Of a stretch of DNA of 64,000 nucleotides, positions 276 to 5,389 are shown in pieces; the stretch's first letter is position 1; the number at the start of each line of letters is the position of its first letter. Origin of the DNA: Lacisediminimonas profundi. Its GTDB lineage: Bacteria; Pseudomonadota; Gammaproteobacteria; Burkholderiales; Burkholderiaceae_D. The DNA is taken from NCBI RefSeq assembly GCF_008831265.1, contig NZ_VTTH01000004.1, forward strand, positions 124,001 through 188,000, in the 5' to 3' direction. Both the position numbers and the translations under genes were made by a program. The notes below the pieces were generated by a model, which worked only from the letters and a program-made list of their open reading frames with translations, had not been told where the DNA came from and searched no databases.

Positions 276-2645
276 ATGCCCAAAGCAGCCAAATACCTCG
301 TCATCGGCCTCTCGGCCCTGCTGGTAATCGTCGCCGGTGGCGCCGCCTTCATCGCTGCTACCTTCAACCCGAACGACTACAAACCGCAAATCATCGCGCT
401 GGTGAAGGAAAAGAAGCAGCGCACGCTCAGCATTCCGGGCGAGATCAAGCTGAGCTTCTTCCCGAAAATTGGCGCCGACCTTGGCCGGGTCAGCATTTCC
501 GAACACAAGGGTAGCGCTGAATTCGCCAGCGTCGAAAAGGCGAAGGTGTCGCTGGCGCTGCTGCCGCTGCTGTCGAAGCAGCTGATTGTCGACCGTATCG
601 AGATCCAGGGGCTGAATGCGAACATCCGTCGGGACAAGACCGGCGCGACCAATTTTGACGACCTGCTGTCAAAGGAAGAAACCAGCAATCAGCAGCTTCG
701 CTTCGACATCGACAGCATCGATATCGGAAACGCCCGCATTGCGCTGGATGACCAGATGGCCGGGCGCAAGCTCGCGCTTACGGGGCTCCAATTGCAGACC
801 GGGCGCATAGCCAATGCGGTGCCAGGCAAGGCCAGCGTCGCAGCGCGCATCAAGAGCAGCGATCCGGCGCTGGATGCGGCCGTGAGCCTCAAGACCAACT
901 TCACCTTCGACCTCGACCGCAAGCGCTATGCAGTGAACAAGCTCGATGGCGAGCTGAAGGGATCGGCGCTTGGGGTGTCCGAGCTGCTACTGAAGATCGC
1001 TGGCGATGCCGACCTGCGCCCGGATGACAAGCGTTTCGACATCAGCGGACTGAAGCTGTCGGCGAGCGGCAAGCAAGCCGGCCAGCCGGTCGAAGTGACG
1101 CTGGATGCACCCAGGCTTTTGATCGGCGATAACAAGGTCAGCGGCGGCAAGGTCTCTGGTGAAGCGAAAATGTCGCCGGGCGGGCGCAACATCAGCGTCA
1201 GTTTCTCGCTGCCCACTTTCGAAGGCACGCCGCAAGCCTTCCGGCTCCCGAGCGTAACGCTTCAGGCCACCGTCAAGGACGCCATCACCGACGCCAAAGC
1301 CAGCATGGAAGGCAGCTTGGCCGGCGATCTGGACCAGTTGCAGTTCTCGTCACCGAAAATGAATGTCACGCTGTCCGGCAAGCAGGGAACGACGATCATG
1401 GGCGGGACGGTGTCGAGCGCGCTCAAGGCCAACCTGAAAACCGGCCTGATCGACCTGTCCGGCATTGCCGCCAGCATGACACTCCCCAACCCCGGCGGCG
1501 GAAGCATGACGCTGGCTGCCAGTGGCCGTGCGGGTGCCGACCTCAACAAGCAGAGCGCCAACGCCAGCCTGCAAGGCAAGCTGGATGAAAGCAGCTTTGA
1601 TGCGAAGATCGGCCTGGCGAAATTTTCGCCGGCGACCTGGGCCTTCGACATCGACATCGACAAGCTGGATGCGGACCGCTATAGCACCAAGTCGCCCGAG
1701 GGCAGTGCCGCACCGGCAGGCACGCCGGCTGCATCTCAGCCATCGCAGCCATCTCAGCCCGCGCAGCCGATCGACCTTTCCGCACTGCGCGAGCTGCAGG
1801 CAAGCGGCAGCCTGCGGGTCGGTAGCCTGAAGGTCCGGAACCTGCGGCTGGCCAAGCTCAGGCTCGACCTGCGCGCCGCCGGCGGCAAGCTGGATGTCAA
1901 TCCGATCAATGCCAGCCTGTATGGCGGCACGATGGCCGGCTCAGCCTCCGCTGTGGCCGCTGCGACACCGAAATTCTCAGTGCGCCAGACCCTGTCCGGT
2001 ATCAATCTCGGCCCCTTGCTGAAGGACGCGATCGGCAAGGATCCAATCGAGGGGCGCGGCAACGTCATGCTGGATGTGAGCACGGAAGGCGGACTGGCGG
2101 CCCAGTTGAAGAAGAACCTGAACGGCACGGCCCGGCTTGAGCTTCGCGACGGCTCGGTCAAAGGCTTCAATATCGCGCAGGCGATCCGCACCGCCAAGAG
2201 CGGGATTGGGGTCCTGAGCGGGAATGCCCCGACGCAGGCCGGCACCGGTTCCGCTTCCGGGCAGACGGATTTCAGCGAACTGTCGGGCAGTTTCCGCATT
2301 GCCCGCGGCGTTGCCCATAACGACGACCTGCGGGCGAAGTCACCGCTGTTGCGGGCGGATGGATCGGGCGACATCGATATAGGCGAAGACCGCCTCGACT
2401 ACCTGGTCAAGGCTACCGTCGTGTCCACCTTGCAGGGCCAGGCTGGTCCGGAGTTGCAGGCGTTGAAAGGCTTGACGGTGCCGGTACGGCTGTCGGGGCC
2501 GTTCACCGCGATCGGCTACAGGGTCGACTTCAGCGGCCTTGCGACCGAGCTGGTGAAAAAGCAGCTGGACAGCCGCAAGGACGACATCAGGGGCAAGGTC
2601 GAGGAGCAGCTGAAGGGGCAGTTGAAGGGACTGTTCGGGCGGTGA
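276..2645 (+). CDS. AsmA family protein
   Basis: 789 residues. One hydrophobic N-terminal segment (about residues 8-30) anchors a long periplasmic part, the layout of AsmA-family proteins, which are linked to outer-membrane assembly and inter-membrane lipid transport. The N-terminal block (PNDYKPQI, then IPGEIKLSFFPKIGADLG) is characteristic of AsmA. The C-terminal third (about 560-745), with the stretch GRGNVMLDVSTEGG and an LNGTARLELRDGSVKGFN-type segment, matches the AsmA C-terminal domain. A Pro/Ser/Gln-rich linker lies near residues 475-495. The ATG at 276 has a weak ribosome site but is placed exactly before the membrane segment. The gene stands alone, with a 700-bp inverted repeat downstream. 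The exact cellular role is not inferable. Confidence 0.88.
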   Translation: MPKAAKYLVIGLSALLVIVAGGAAFIAATFNPNDYKPQIIALVKEKKQRTLSIPGEIKLSFFPKIGADLGRVSISEHKGSAEFASVEKAKVSLALLPLLSKQLIVDRIEIQGLNANIRRDKTGATNFDDLLSKEETSNQQLRFDIDSIDIGNARIALDDQMAGRKLALTGLQLQTGRIANAVPGKASVAARIKSSDPALDAAVSLKTNFTFDLDRKRYAVNKLDGELKGSALGVSELLLKIAGDADLRPDDKRFDISGLKLSASGKQAGQPVEVTLDAPRLLIGDNKVSGGKVSGEAKMSPGGRNISVSFSLPTFEGTPQAFRLPSVTLQATVKDAITDAKASMEGSLAGDLDQLQFSSPKMNVTLSGKQGTTIMGGTVSSALKANLKTGLIDLSGIAASMTLPNPGGGSMTLAASGRAGADLNKQSANASLQGKLDESSFDAKIGLAKFSPATWAFDIDIDKLDADRYSTKSPEGSAAPAGTPAASQPSQPSQPAQPIDLSALRELQASGSLRVGSLKVRNLRLAKLRLDLRAAGGKLDVNPINASLYGGTMAGSASAVAAATPKFSVRQTLSGINLGPLLKDAIGKDPIEGRGNVMLDVSTEGGLAAQLKKNLNGTARLELRDGSVKGFNIAQAIRTAKSGIGVLSGNAPTQAGTGSASGQTDFSELSGSFRIARGVAHNDDLRAKSPLLRADGSGDIDIGEDRLDYLVKATVVSTLQGQAGPELQALKGLTVPVRLSGPFTAIGYRVDFSGLATELVKKQLDSRKDDIRGKVEEQLKGQLKGLFGR

Positions 2646-2675
2646 GTGGTTGGGACGTTTTGTGGTTTTTAGCTC

Positions 2676-3375
2676 TTTGGCTTGCAGTTCGTGCGGCTGG
2701 GTTTGATGGTTGTCGGTGTGAAGCCGGGAGACACCCCGGCAGGTGTGTAACTTTCTTTTGGAAAAGAAAGTCACCAAAGAAACCAAAGTCAAAACCCACT
2801 TGGCCAACGCCCGCTTCGATCGCCAACCAGACTCGGATGTCTGGGCTAATCCAGTGCGGCGTTCGCGAGCGATGATCCCTCGGCTGTGTGCCGCTTACCT
2901 AATCAGCCAACCCCATGAAGTGTCTTATACCGATGCCCAGCGCACCGTTGACTCTTTATGGTTTTCGAAGCTTCAAACAAGCGACGGAGGGGATCTGTTC
3001 ACGAAAGGCAGAGAGCGGCAAAAAATCGCTTGCGACATCCGCGCCCCCTGACAACCCGCCCTCAAGAGCCAATTAGCGGCTTCGAAAACCATTAAGAGTC
3101 AACGAGCGGTGGTGTGCGGTCGGCGGCATTGAAGTGGGTTGGCTGATCCCGGTCAGAGGCGAACGTGTGGCAGTACCTTCCTCGCGAACGCCGCACTGGA
3201 TTAGCCCAGACATCCGAGTCTGGTTGGCGATCGAAGCGGGCGTTGGCCAAGTGGGTTTTGACGTTTTTTCTTTGGTTCCTTTCTTTTTCAAAAAGAAAGG
3301 AACACACCCGCCGGGGTGTCTCCCGGCTTCACAACCACAACCATCAAACCCAGCCAAACGAACCGCAAGCCAAAT
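2676..3375. repeat. Large intergenic inverted repeat (about 297-bp arms, 107-bp spacer)
   Basis: The arms at 2676-2972 and 3079-3375 are imperfect reverse complements. Nearly identical blocks include the 26-nt segments at 2946-2971 and 3079-3104, and a long block around 2786-2869 matched by about 3184-3262. The least conserved part is about 2870-2905. Each arm holds two smaller palindromes: GCCGGG/CCCGGC (2723-2740 and 3310-3327) and an A/T-rich one (2750-2771 and 3278-3300). The element fills the space between two convergent genes. Short open frames inside it (for example 2743-3051 plus and 3073-3357 minus) are mirror images of each other and are not believed to be genes. No transposase or target-site duplication was seen. 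This 837-bp gap (2646-3482) otherwise holds only the short repeat at 3421-3465. Confidence 0.85.
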
Positions 3376-3420
3376 AGAGGCAAAACAACTAAACCACCCA
3401 CCGATATAACTAATGACCAG

Positions 3421-3465
3421 CCTTTCAGGGAAGGGAGCGTTCGTGGCGTTCGCCCGGCTACGCTA
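3421..3465 (+). repeat. Dispersed 45-bp repeat, copy 1
   Basis: The segment shares a core of about 45 bp with 23969-24014, including TTCGTGGCGT and the end TACGCTA. It lies just outside the large inverted repeat and before the end of the hydrolase gene at 3483. Copy 2 carries a perfect hairpin on its left side that is absent here. Function unknown. Confidence 0.6.
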
Positions 3466-3482
3466 GTTGAACCAGAGCCGAA

Positions 3483-4322
3483 CTATCCCTGCAGAAATCG
3501 GGCAATCGGCTCGATCTGCCCCGGCACATTCAGGCATGGCGCATGGCCGCAGCCCGGTACCGTCAGCAGCGTCGCCTTCGGCCCGCGCTGCGTCATCTCC
3601 TGTGCTGTTTCCGGCGCCAGCAAATCCGAATTTTCCCCGCGCAGCAGCAGCACCGGCATGTCGAGACTGTCGAACTCCGCCTCAAGCACGTAGTCATCCG
3701 GATAGTTGAAGAACTGCTTCACCATGTTCGGGTCGTAATGCGTGGTGATCTTGCCGTCCGGCAGCCGCCGCACCGATGTCTCGGCCATCCGCCGCCACTG
3801 CGCATCGCTTTGCCATCCGTAGGGCGTGTAGACAGTGCGCAGGTACTGCTCCAGCTCGGTCACCGTGTCGAACTGCGGCGGGCTGCCGGCGTAGGATTTG
3901 ATGCGGTCCACGGCGCTTTGCGCGATCCGGCTGCCGATGTCATTGAGCACCAGATGCGAGATGCGCCCACGCAGCGTCGTCGCCGCCGCCTTGATGCCGA
4001 TGGCGCCGCCCATCGACGTGCCGATCCAGCGCACTTGCTGCAGCCCGAGCTGGTCCAGCAGCGAGCGCGCCAGCCCTGCATAGAAGTCCAGGCAGTATTC
4101 CGCGTCCGGGCGCGCACTCCATTGCGAAAATCCGCGGCCGATGGTGTCGGGGCAGATGATGCGGTAACGGTCGGCAAGAGTGGCGGCAATGTCGTCAAAG
4201 TCACGCCCGGTTCGCGCCAGGCCGTGCCACATGACCAGCGGCGGCGCATCGGCCGCGCCCCATTGGACGAAATGGATTTCGCGATCGAGACAACGGAGGT
4301 AGTGCGAGCTTGGCTGCATCAT
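3483..4322 (-). CDS. Alpha/beta hydrolase at the end of an ABC importer operon
   Basis: 279 residues. The nucleophile elbow reads GTSMGG (Ser near residue 104). An oxyanion-type HGLARTGRDFD stretch is near residue 33. A late PVLLLRGENSDLL gives the candidate catalytic Asp, and GCGHAPCL the catalytic His. The frame stays open upstream into livM, but the ATG at 4322 overlaps the livM stop as ATGA and gives a normal N terminus, so I start there. Translational coupling to livM suggests it acts on the imported compound, perhaps an ester or a C-C bond, but the substrate is unknown. The family also includes meta-cleavage hydrolases and esterases. Confidence 0.85.
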   Translation of the reverse strand: MMQPSSHYLRCLDREIHFVQWGAADAPPLVMWHGLARTGRDFDDIAATLADRYRIICPDTIGRGFSQWSARPDAEYCLDFYAGLARSLLDQLGLQQVRWIGTSMGGAIGIKAAATTLRGRISHLVLNDIGSRIAQSAVDRIKSYAGSPPQFDTVTELEQYLRTVYTPYGWQSDAQWRRMAETSVRRLPDGKITTHYDPNMVKQFFNYPDDYVLEAEFDSLDMPVLLLRGENSDLLAPETAQEMTQRGPKATLLTVPGCGHAPCLNVPGQIEPIARFLQG

Positions 4323-5389
4323 TTCGCTCCTTGCGTACGTCCGCGCAGCTTGCCTACCATGCCGGTCGGGAAGAAATACACCGACAGCACGAACAGCACG
4401 CCCAGCCACAGCAGCCAGCGGTCCGGCGACAGCAGCGCCGACAGCCACGCAATGCCTTGGGTGGCGCTGGCGCCGATCGCCATCAGGTCCTGCAGGTAAC
4501 TCTGCGCAAGGGTAAAGATGGTGGTGCCGATCACCGCGCCGTACATCGTACCCATGCCGCCGATCACGACGATCAGCAGGATGTCGATCATGATCTCGAA
4601 AGACAACGAGGCGTCCGGCCCGTTGTACCGCAACCAGATGGCGAGCAGTGCGCCGGCCAGCGTGGCAAACAGTGCTGCCAGTACATTCGACAAGGTGCGG
4701 AAGACCACGGTCCGGTAGCCGATCGCCTCGGCGCGGAAGTCATTCTCGCGAATCGCCTGCAGTACCCGGCCGAACGGCGAGTTGACGATGCGCAGCATGG
4801 CCAGGAACAGCACGACCGCCGCGAAAAAGACGATGTAATAGGTGATGAACCGGCCGTCCAGCGATGCGTTCAGGATTGGTTCCTCGGCCAGCTGGAATGC
4901 GGGCGACAACACTTCCGGCAGCTTGAAATTCAGGCCGTCTTCGCCGCCGGTAAAGTCCGACAGCTGCGAAGCGAGTGTCTGGAATGCAGACGCGACCGCC
5001 AGCGTGATCATGGCGTAAAAGATCGCCCTCACCCGCAGCGAGAACAGCCCGATCACCAGCGACAGCAGCATCGATACCAGCAGCGCGCAGACGATGCCGA
5101 TTCCCAGCGCTGACCAGCTTGCCCCCAGCCTGGTGCTGGCAATCGCCACGCCGTAAGCGCCGATGCCGAAGAACATCGTGTGCGCGAACGAGACGATGCC
5201 CGTATAGCCGAGCAACAGGTCGTAACTGGCCACCAGCACAATGAATATCAGGATCTTGGCCGCTACGTTGAGCGCCTTGGAACCGGGGAAAATGAAGGGC
5301 GCGAAAGCCAGGCAGAAGACGATGACGATCAGCATCGCCGACAGCCAGCGATTTCGTGGCAGGTCGTGGGAGAGCAGGCGGGCAATCAT
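4319..5389 (-). CDS. livM: Branched-chain-type ABC transporter permease LivM
   Basis: 356 residues with about ten hydrophobic segments in the inner membrane. The LivM hallmark GYTGIVSFAHTMFFGIGAYG is near residues 65-84, and the cytoplasmic coupling region reads SPFGRVLQAIRENDFRAEAIGY. It is the second permease of the importer encoded by the genes up to 9232. It follows livH by 18 nt and overlaps the next hydrolase gene by 4 nt. HAAT-family permeases carry amino acids, urea, amides or aromatic acids, so the name gives the family and not the substrate. Confidence 0.92.
   Translation of the reverse strand: MIARLLSHDLPRNRWLSAMLIVIVFCLAFAPFIFPGSKALNVAAKILIFIVLVASYDLLLGYTGIVSFAHTMFFGIGAYGVAIASTRLGASWSALGIGIVCALLVSMLLSLVIGLFSLRVRAIFYAMITLAVASAFQTLASQLSDFTGGEDGLNFKLPEVLSPAFQLAEEPILNASLDGRFITYYIVFFAAVVLFLAMLRIVNSPFGRVLQAIRENDFRAEAIGYRTVVFRTLSNVLAALFATLAGALLAIWLRYNGPDASLSFEIMIDILLIVVIGGMGTMYGAVIGTTIFTLAQSYLQDLMAIGASATQGIAWLSALLSPDRWLLWLGVLFVLSVYFFPTGMVGKLRGRTQGAK

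Follow-up and report, generated by a model that had tools for sequence, protein, structure and literature searches.

The long inverted repeat between the asmA gene and an alpha/beta hydrolase gene in the window (the whole 64,000-nt stretch of Lacisediminimonas profundi DNA analysed here) is probably, with a likelihood that we put at about 0.72, one copy of a dispersed, protein-free, non-autonomous mobile element of ~0.7-0.9 kb that works like a very large REPIN. Its conserved feature is a module of short hairpins inside each arm, and since the two facing modules make up the invariant part of the element, they are likely to be its recognition signal, as in REPINs. The preliminary description had named a dispersed non-autonomous element as one option, for which copies at no fewer than 46 places in the same genome and empty sites in species of the same genus now give strong support.

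The element and its hairpin modules

Features of the locus, in positions of the window, were as follows.

276..2645, + strand: asmA gene (Pfam AsmA, E 9e-70), converging on the element
2646..3452, no strand: whole element including outer layers; ends approximate, with edges differing from copy to copy
2676..2971, + strand: left arm, inverted repeat with 3079-3375
2723..2782, + strand: left structured module, reading inward (hairpins A, B and C, then CCAAAGAAA); covariance model R1 match G000:C4:126723-126782:+, E 1.7e-17
2723..2740, + strand: hairpin A of the left module, GCCGGG/CCCGGC (sequence, helix counts and fold); overlaps and excludes hairpin B
2751..2770, + strand: core of hairpin C of the left module, CTTTCTTTT/AAAAGAAAG (repeat search, fold and helix C covariation)
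2827..2844, + strand: further small hairpin CCAGAC/GTCTGG of a conserved arm block (sequence; within a 36-nt block)
2946..2971, + strand: left half of the innermost inverted repeat (repeat search)
2972..3078, no strand: central spacer, differing among copies
3079..3375, - strand: right arm, inverted repeat with 2676-2971
3079..3104, - strand: right half of the innermost inverted repeat (repeat search)
3267..3327, - strand: right structured module, facing the left one; covariance model R1 match G000:C4:127267-127327:-, E 3.9e-20
3304..3319, - strand: hairpin B of the right module, then a T-rich stretch (pattern scan); terminator-like in the sense of the hydrolase transcript
3376..3452, - strand: right outer layer, A/C-rich on the + strand, with a CTCCCTTCCCTGAAAGG-type palindrome at its end
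3483..4448, - strand: alpha/beta hydrolase gene (Pfam Abhydrolase_1, E 1.5e-22), converging on the element

Likeness to other copies ended on the left at the asmA stop codon (2643-2645) and on the right at ~3452. An inverted-repeat search returned outer arms at 2673-2869 and 3181-3377 (197 nt, 89% complementary) and an inner pair at 2946-2971 and 3079-3104 (26 nt, 96% complementary, with 107 nt between), and the arm stretches just outside the inner pair (~2870-2945 and ~3105-3180) were far more weakly complementary. The preliminary description had placed two arms around a 107-bp spacer, which is exactly the gap found, and its view that similarity is strongest in an outer block and in the innermost 26 bp held as well. 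It had also taken an arm identity of 60% as the level below which the inverted repeat should be doubted; a Blastn alignment of the element to its reverse complement spanned 758 columns at 76.8%, above that level.

None of the open reading frames wholly within the element exceeded 102 aa or was accepted by the codon model. A classical IS or transposon in the region was rejected on this absence of a supported gene. Searches against Rfam gave no family at E ≤ 5 in positions 2400-3700 of the window and one chance-level miRNA match (E 0.99) at eight other loci.

The G+C content of the module is ~48% (29/60 in one module of this genome). Hairpin B occurred in variants such as CTCGCCC/GGGCGAG, ACACCC/GGGTGT and GCGCCC/GGGCGC, and hairpin C is A/T-rich, with NNNCTTTCTTTT/AAAAGAAAGNNN followed by CCAAAGAAA. 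Because hairpins A and B overlap, they are mutually exclusive; predicted folds contained A plus C in both modules of the window and in one module of the same-genus genome G002, and B plus C in a Variovorax module.

Covariation was evaluated in an alignment (A1) of 27 distinct modules, chosen by hand from 60 unique ones. Across these representatives, the pairs of helices B and C formed in 94.7% of cells and 7 of 19 pairs had double-sided changes, with a covariation of 0.237 compared with 0.071 ± 0.010 after shuffling and at most 0.068 with the partner slid. For helix C alone, covariation was 0.229 compared with 0.050 in the control, and 5 of 12 pairs had double-sided changes in the 27 sequences. 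The count for helix A (60/60) is partly built in, because the search pattern itself demands hairpin parts; the shuffled and slid controls back the counts for B and C, though A1 came from the same pattern-selected set. Judged from these sequences, the covariation shows a selected palindrome, compatible alike with RNA and with single-stranded or cruciform DNA.

Copies in the L. profundi genome

The genome of L. profundi (4.5 Mb, 17 contigs) was searched with several parts of the element. The left arm gave at least 55 matches, 40 of them at 90-100% identity including itself, with 40 of 79 candidates scored. The 36-nt arm block that holds the CCAGAC/GTCTGG hairpin occurred 44 times with 0-3 mismatches, compared with 0 occurrences of the reversed control, and the list of copies obtained with the element centre agreed with those from the arm queries. 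Copies were retrieved at 46 places, to which a model search added 5 more, and 33 of the 46 were taken as full copies, with the fixed order left arm, spacer and right arm. Across these 33 copies, the inner arm blocks showed 94-97% per-column identity, yet the two halves of one copy differed there, indicating that whole units were copied.

Covariance model R1 found at least 95 modules at E ≤ 2.4e-15, with 150 of 2257 candidates scored, and 29 weaker rows represented the opposite strand of hairpin C. Since only part of the first-look candidates were scored, the copy counts are lower bounds. Modules were mostly paired: among 44 neighbouring pairs less than 1.5 kb apart, 42 were face to face at 473-697 bp, 0 were back to back and 2 ran in the same direction. 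Such face-to-face pairs held 84 of the 95 modules, and 9 modules were single, 5 of them near contig ends.

A subfamily of six copies (L132, L133, L142, L145, L155 and L160) kept the left arm and had a different right half, which was common only in ~50-65 nt around the module and in several copies contained short internal direct repeats. Composite copies at L165:3345-5158 (G000:C11) and L138:3462-4405, which have three consecutive right arms or repeated left-arm pieces ~97 bp apart, were perhaps formed by recombination between copies. Many copies of L120-L165 were flanked, outside the modules, by an outer palindrome layer (GCTCCCTCCCTTTCAAGGGCTGAGC...) with two sequence types beyond it, and this layer may be an older REP-like repeat. 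Modules also lay within a few hundred bases of the ends of contigs C3, C4, C5, C7 and C11 of this genome (G000) and of many contig ends in G001 and G002, the genomes of the same genus. Assemblies thus appear to be broken by the element, which sits at their contig ends and can yield spurious small ORFs.

Placement, empty sites and transcription

Gene calls from a simple codon-usage ORF finder, rather than an annotation, were used to evaluate placement. In the L. profundi genome, copies with both neighbours were located between convergent genes in 27 of 43 cases, between tandem genes in 16 and between divergent genes in 0 (3 more places lacked a neighbour), whereas element-free neighbour pairs in the same DNA were convergent in 31, tandem in 166 and divergent in 48 of 245 cases. 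Assuming independent places, the chance of at least 27 convergent copies was ~1e-14 to 1e-12, and that of zero divergent ones 8e-5 to 2e-7. The position between converging genes, which the preliminary description had reported for this copy, is the commonest setting of the family here. Similarity to the outer consensus began no more than 3 nt from a stop codon at 4 of 56 sides, including the left side of the copy in the window, and otherwise further out.

Rough counts in other genomes, made with a mixed codon model, placed modules with both neighbours between convergent genes in 15 of 43 cases, between same-direction genes in 26 and between divergent genes in 2. Across 77 modules in those genomes, 45 of the 62 cases that were classed had the nearest upstream gene directed at the module, and 7 modules overlapped a predicted gene. 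With merely 15 of 43 convergent elsewhere, the convergent excess is established for the L. profundi genome alone; on these rough counts the avoidance of divergent sites holds in the other genomes too, and the convergent excess there is modest.

Orthologous sites in the two same-genus genomes were largely empty. The convergent asmA/hydrolase pair was found in G001 with 32 bp between the stop codons, compared with 837 bp in L. profundi. Twenty-one convergent places qualified for this comparison; a joined query was run for the first 16, and the orthologous convergent pair was intact in G001 or G002 at 12 of them (17 pairs). The spacers of these 17 pairs ranged from -17 to 351 bp (median 72) and contained a module in 0 of 17 cases by a pattern test, compared with spacers of 828-1227 bp at the 12 places in L. 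profundi. At the remaining 4 places, only the left gene was found (L154 and L156) or no match was kept (L132 and L139). At L144, the terminator hairpin of the relative was still present to the right of the element, indicating that the element was added to the spacer. The two relatives are 83% (G001) and 81% (G002) complete, and absent genes may reflect assembly gaps.

A comparison of 172 L. profundi genes flanking copies with 29 module regions of G001 and G002 kept 11 matches from 7 places, of which only L125 fits a shared site, its matching genes lying next to modules at two G001 contig ends; this suggests a module at the same site in G001 and speaks against recent gain at that place. Positions also turned over in another genus, where 46 genes beside the modules of genome G212 had no match in 8 module regions of genome G306. 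Given the empty sites and this turnover, strict conservation of the copies as ancestral terminators is not supported. The copies look like recent insertions, and independent loss in the relatives, although possible, is less simple than gain here.

Both the placement bias and the empty sites agree with a parasitic unit on which selection acts as a filter; copies between convergent 3' ends would survive because little harm is done there. A similar tail-to-tail bias of Pseudomonas repeats is explained as the least harmful location in the part of that report on which we draw (PMC2718517).

Base composition around the modules bears on what an inserted copy might do. Over the 90 nt outside the module, the entry strand contained A 6, C 14, G 39 and T 41%, and the exit strand A 41, C 39, G 14 and T 6%. 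G+T exceeded 60% over 70 nt on the entry side in 78 of 78 modules of this genome, compared with 7% of control windows, and in 75% of 116 modules of other genomes, compared with 11% of control windows. Rho prefers C-rich, G-poor RNA, and the composition of the exit side (C 39%, G 14%) fits this feature of Rho-dependent terminators. Each converging transcript would meet a hairpin module first, in the same orientation, and read-through would then cross a C/A-rich, G-poor stretch resembling a Rho loading site, where, given the preference of Rho, it could be stopped before the opposite gene. Because of this order, hairpin module and then Rho-loading-like stretch, the unit once in place would act as a two-way barrier at gene ends, a role that is plausible and that we hold with less certainty than mobility. 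In positions 2400-3700 of the window, a pattern scan found 3 terminator-like sites compared with 2.1 expected by chance, which is not a clear excess and counts against the barrier, and 1 of the 2 modules scored as terminator-like in sense.

The same observations could be explained by a bidirectional terminator or antisense barrier that was selected by the host and spread through usefulness rather than selfishness. In its favour are the 3'-3' placement in this genome, the strand asymmetry, the covarying hairpins and the fact that both genes of a convergent pair end at a module in sense, but species of the same genus do with short spacers (median 72 bp) between the same genes, positions are mostly not common to relatives, least harm has been offered as the explanation of the Pseudomonas bias, and one module of the two here lacks a terminator-like score, so that we regard host selection as unlikely. 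The filled and empty sites form a set at which one can measure what a large hairpin costs or brings when it lies between convergent genes.

Mobilisation, related repeats and distribution

Bacterial MITEs (NEMIS, RUP, ERIC and others) resemble the element, in the part of the literature consulted (PMC3733652), in being protein-free, having inverted repeats, lying between genes and having RNA-structure potential. The element could accordingly be a strict MITE, that is, a deletion derivative of a terminal-inverted-repeat transposon moved by the DDE-type enzyme of that transposon. It shares with MITEs the lack of coding capacity, since no predicted gene was found inside the copies at the 46 places except for one overlapping call at L122, and it is multi-copy, with inverted repeats at both ends and empty sites. 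However, neither the sharp common end nor the target-site duplication of MITEs was found. Outer similarity stopped at points that differed from copy to copy, unlike the ends of a cut-and-paste transposon, and in 33 copies the longest repeat shared by the flanks was 6.61 nt compared with 6.65 nt for mismatched flanks, a comparison limited by indistinct edges and by the possible decay of older duplications. At ~0.8 kb the element is also larger than the 70-300 bp given for bacterial MITEs in the same part of that source, and no parent transposon was found. Among 153 listed genes beside modules in other genomes, of which 117 were scanned, the 25 most-matched of 150 Pfam families included no transposase and were ordinary metabolic ones; a single transposase may lie among the other 125. 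We consider a strict MITE improbable. Neither excision nor transposition of a copy was observed.

In layout, the element corresponds to a very large REPIN. As far as the published account was available to us (PMC3116915), REPINs are replicative units of two hairpin sequences in inverted orientation, extragenic and present in many copies, with commonest REP spacings of 71 and 110 bp, conserved 16-mers, ties to RAYTs and random distribution in extragenic space. The element shares the inverted pair of palindromic units (42/44 face to face, 0 back to back), but differs from that account in its 60-71-nt modules 473-697 bp apart, in lacking a GTAG/CGTC tag and a linked RAYT, and in its 3'-3' bias in the L. 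profundi genome. The GTAG or CGTC tetranucleotide that ends the 20-40-nt palindrome of REPs was absent as an invariant feature from the 27 aligned modules, and the cognate RAYT gene flanked by the repeat had no counterpart, as the single Y1 transposase gene of the genome contained no module core in its 3.3-kb locus. Because these two defining REP features are missing, we class the element as a non-autonomous repeat element that is neither a REPIN nor a MITE.

TIR repeat families and TIRtrons likewise have long inverted repeats, some as dimers, and are unrelated to GTAG REPs, but their TIRs, as described in the part of the source consulted (PMC3733652), flank Y1 transposase genes, whereas the Y1 gene of L. 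profundi is not flanked by modules. Membership of the REP/REPIN or TIRtron group, with mobilisation by a RAYT/TIRYT Y1 transposase, would explain the inverted hairpin doublet, its extragenic location and the arms that differ from species to species. The consulted parts of two reports (PMC3116915 and PMC3733652) describe REPINs of this layout as well as RAYT-like genes that lie between long TIRs and in some cases come with repeat families, and a Y1 match was found in 58 of 72 module-bearing genomes compared with 121 of 204 others (P 0.0015). Such membership is nevertheless doubtful, to the same degree as a strict MITE: the conserved tag is missing, the module exceeds published lengths about two- to threefold and the spacing published distances four- to tenfold, the Y1 gene of this genome lacks flanking modules, and 14 of the 72 module-bearing genomes had no Y1 match at E ≤ 1e-5. 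With these 14 exceptions and a Y1 gene that is not beside a module, the link to RAYTs as drivers is one of association only.

Two further families were compared from partial descriptions. The Pseudomonas fluorescens R0-R200 families are, in the portion of the report consulted (PMC2718517), intergenic like the element, with several inverted repeats around a core and a tail-repeat-tail bias; at 50-352 bp, they are set apart from it by description alone. BRE, the Beta-proteobacterial repeat element of Hot et al. 2011, is similarly spread over Betaproteobacteria, including the motif-carrying Rhodoferax and Acidovorax, but is given for Bordetella in the part of that paper used here as 75-91 bp, 69% G+C and single or tandem (PMC3110155), whereas the module is ~48% G+C and paired face to face, so that the two differ in size and composition as far as described. 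No description of the element was found in the open-access literature searched, where five of its sequence words had no text match either; absence from print is not implied.

For the non-autonomous mobile element that we favour, an enzyme supplied in trans would recognise the paired hairpin modules, which would probably be folded as single strands on recognition, as is supposed for REPIN ends, and would then copy the whole unit. It should be possible to find the mobiliser, for which the covarying A/B/C module offers a defined candidate recognition site.

The two arms of a copy show little sign of evolving together as a duplex. Arm identity was 0.878 within one copy and 0.861 between copies (P 0.003 by permutation), and the two arms of one copy often had different hairpin-C types. 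Since the arms of one copy are barely more alike than those of different copies, arms seem to recombine among copies, and the long duplex, which the preliminary description had offered as its other option for ending or protecting both converging transcripts, does not look like a maintained feature. Thus, although RNA of positions 2646-3480 folds at -524.8 kcal/mol compared with -283.6 ± 8.4 in 20 shuffles (z -28.8), an element whose arms are kept complementary so that an ~800-nt transcript hairpin protects or processes RNA is very improbable, given the arm identities, the mixed hairpin-C types and the six copies whose right half matches only ~50-65 nt around the module.

In other genomes the likeness is confined largely to the modules. 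The whole 700-bp element had any match in 6 of 60 relatives, L. profundi included, and outside this genome the matches were short pieces of 52-145 nt. In G001, G002 and other genera the arms differed, and a block near each outer end was common; among the matches listed, named carriers of the motif of this block were Variovorax, Rhodoferax, Acidovorax, Curvibacter, Ramlibacter, Comamonas, Herminiimonas and others. When the class was sampled evenly, the module was detected at E ≤ 0.001 in 72 of 276 genomes and 63 of 216 genera, L. profundi included, and in a sample of the phylum, matches at E ≤ 1e-5 were present in 24 of 150 genomes.

Facing pairs recurred in these genomes. At 186 hand-selected places in 52 other genomes, chosen in part mainly from rows with a likely neighbour and giving incomplete tallies, face-to-face neighbours numbered 41 and came from 23 genomes, whereas 4 neighbours were back to back (37-82 bp) and 2 in the same direction. 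A pattern search of 212 loci outside L. profundi, some overlapping, gave 30 facing neighbours, 1 back to back and 1 same-direction, and two of the 30, merely 66 bp apart, are probably one hairpin read on both strands.

Taken jointly, these data hint at an unnamed superfamily of mobile elements over much of the Gammaproteobacteria (in the GTDB sense), a reading that we offer tentatively, as possible rather than probable. Only the facing pair of 60-71-nt modules, with mutually exclusive hairpins A and B, would be conserved, and the rest would be replaced between species; the enzyme would differ both from a linked RAYT and from a classical TIR transposase, and 3'-3' junctions would be where the element gathers in genomes like that of L. 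profundi, forming two-way transcription barriers there. Dozens of copies here and presence in about a quarter of the sampled class genomes, with no name in the literature searched, would amount to an annotation blind spot.

A phage origin was rejected, as the motif had no exact match in viral contigs and 50,697 phage records had no match to a Variovorax copy or to the centre of the window's element. Escherichia coli had no match to a Variovorax module, and plasmid records had none to the element of the window itself. Three Pasteurella multocida plasmid records, two of them labelled mixed culture, matched 15% of a Variovorax copy at 88%, and these may be contamination. Seven Paraburkholderia replicons of 1.9-2.6 Mb each had 37-40 places that matched a short part (7-9%) of the Variovorax copy. 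In family f194, which belongs to another class (G338-G443), the module model gave matches of 31-39 bits, of which two in G351 occurred as facing pairs at a distance of 344 bp; these may be distant relatives or convergent hairpins. Facing pairs more than 750 bp apart were seen twice at loci outside L. profundi, and only the one in G002 contained a predicted gene. This face-to-face pair (L288:3678-5307, G002:C24) has 324-nt arms that are 92% complementary and encloses a 222-aa ORF (4163-4831, - strand) with no significant Pfam match, possibly a cargo gene or a captured host gene.
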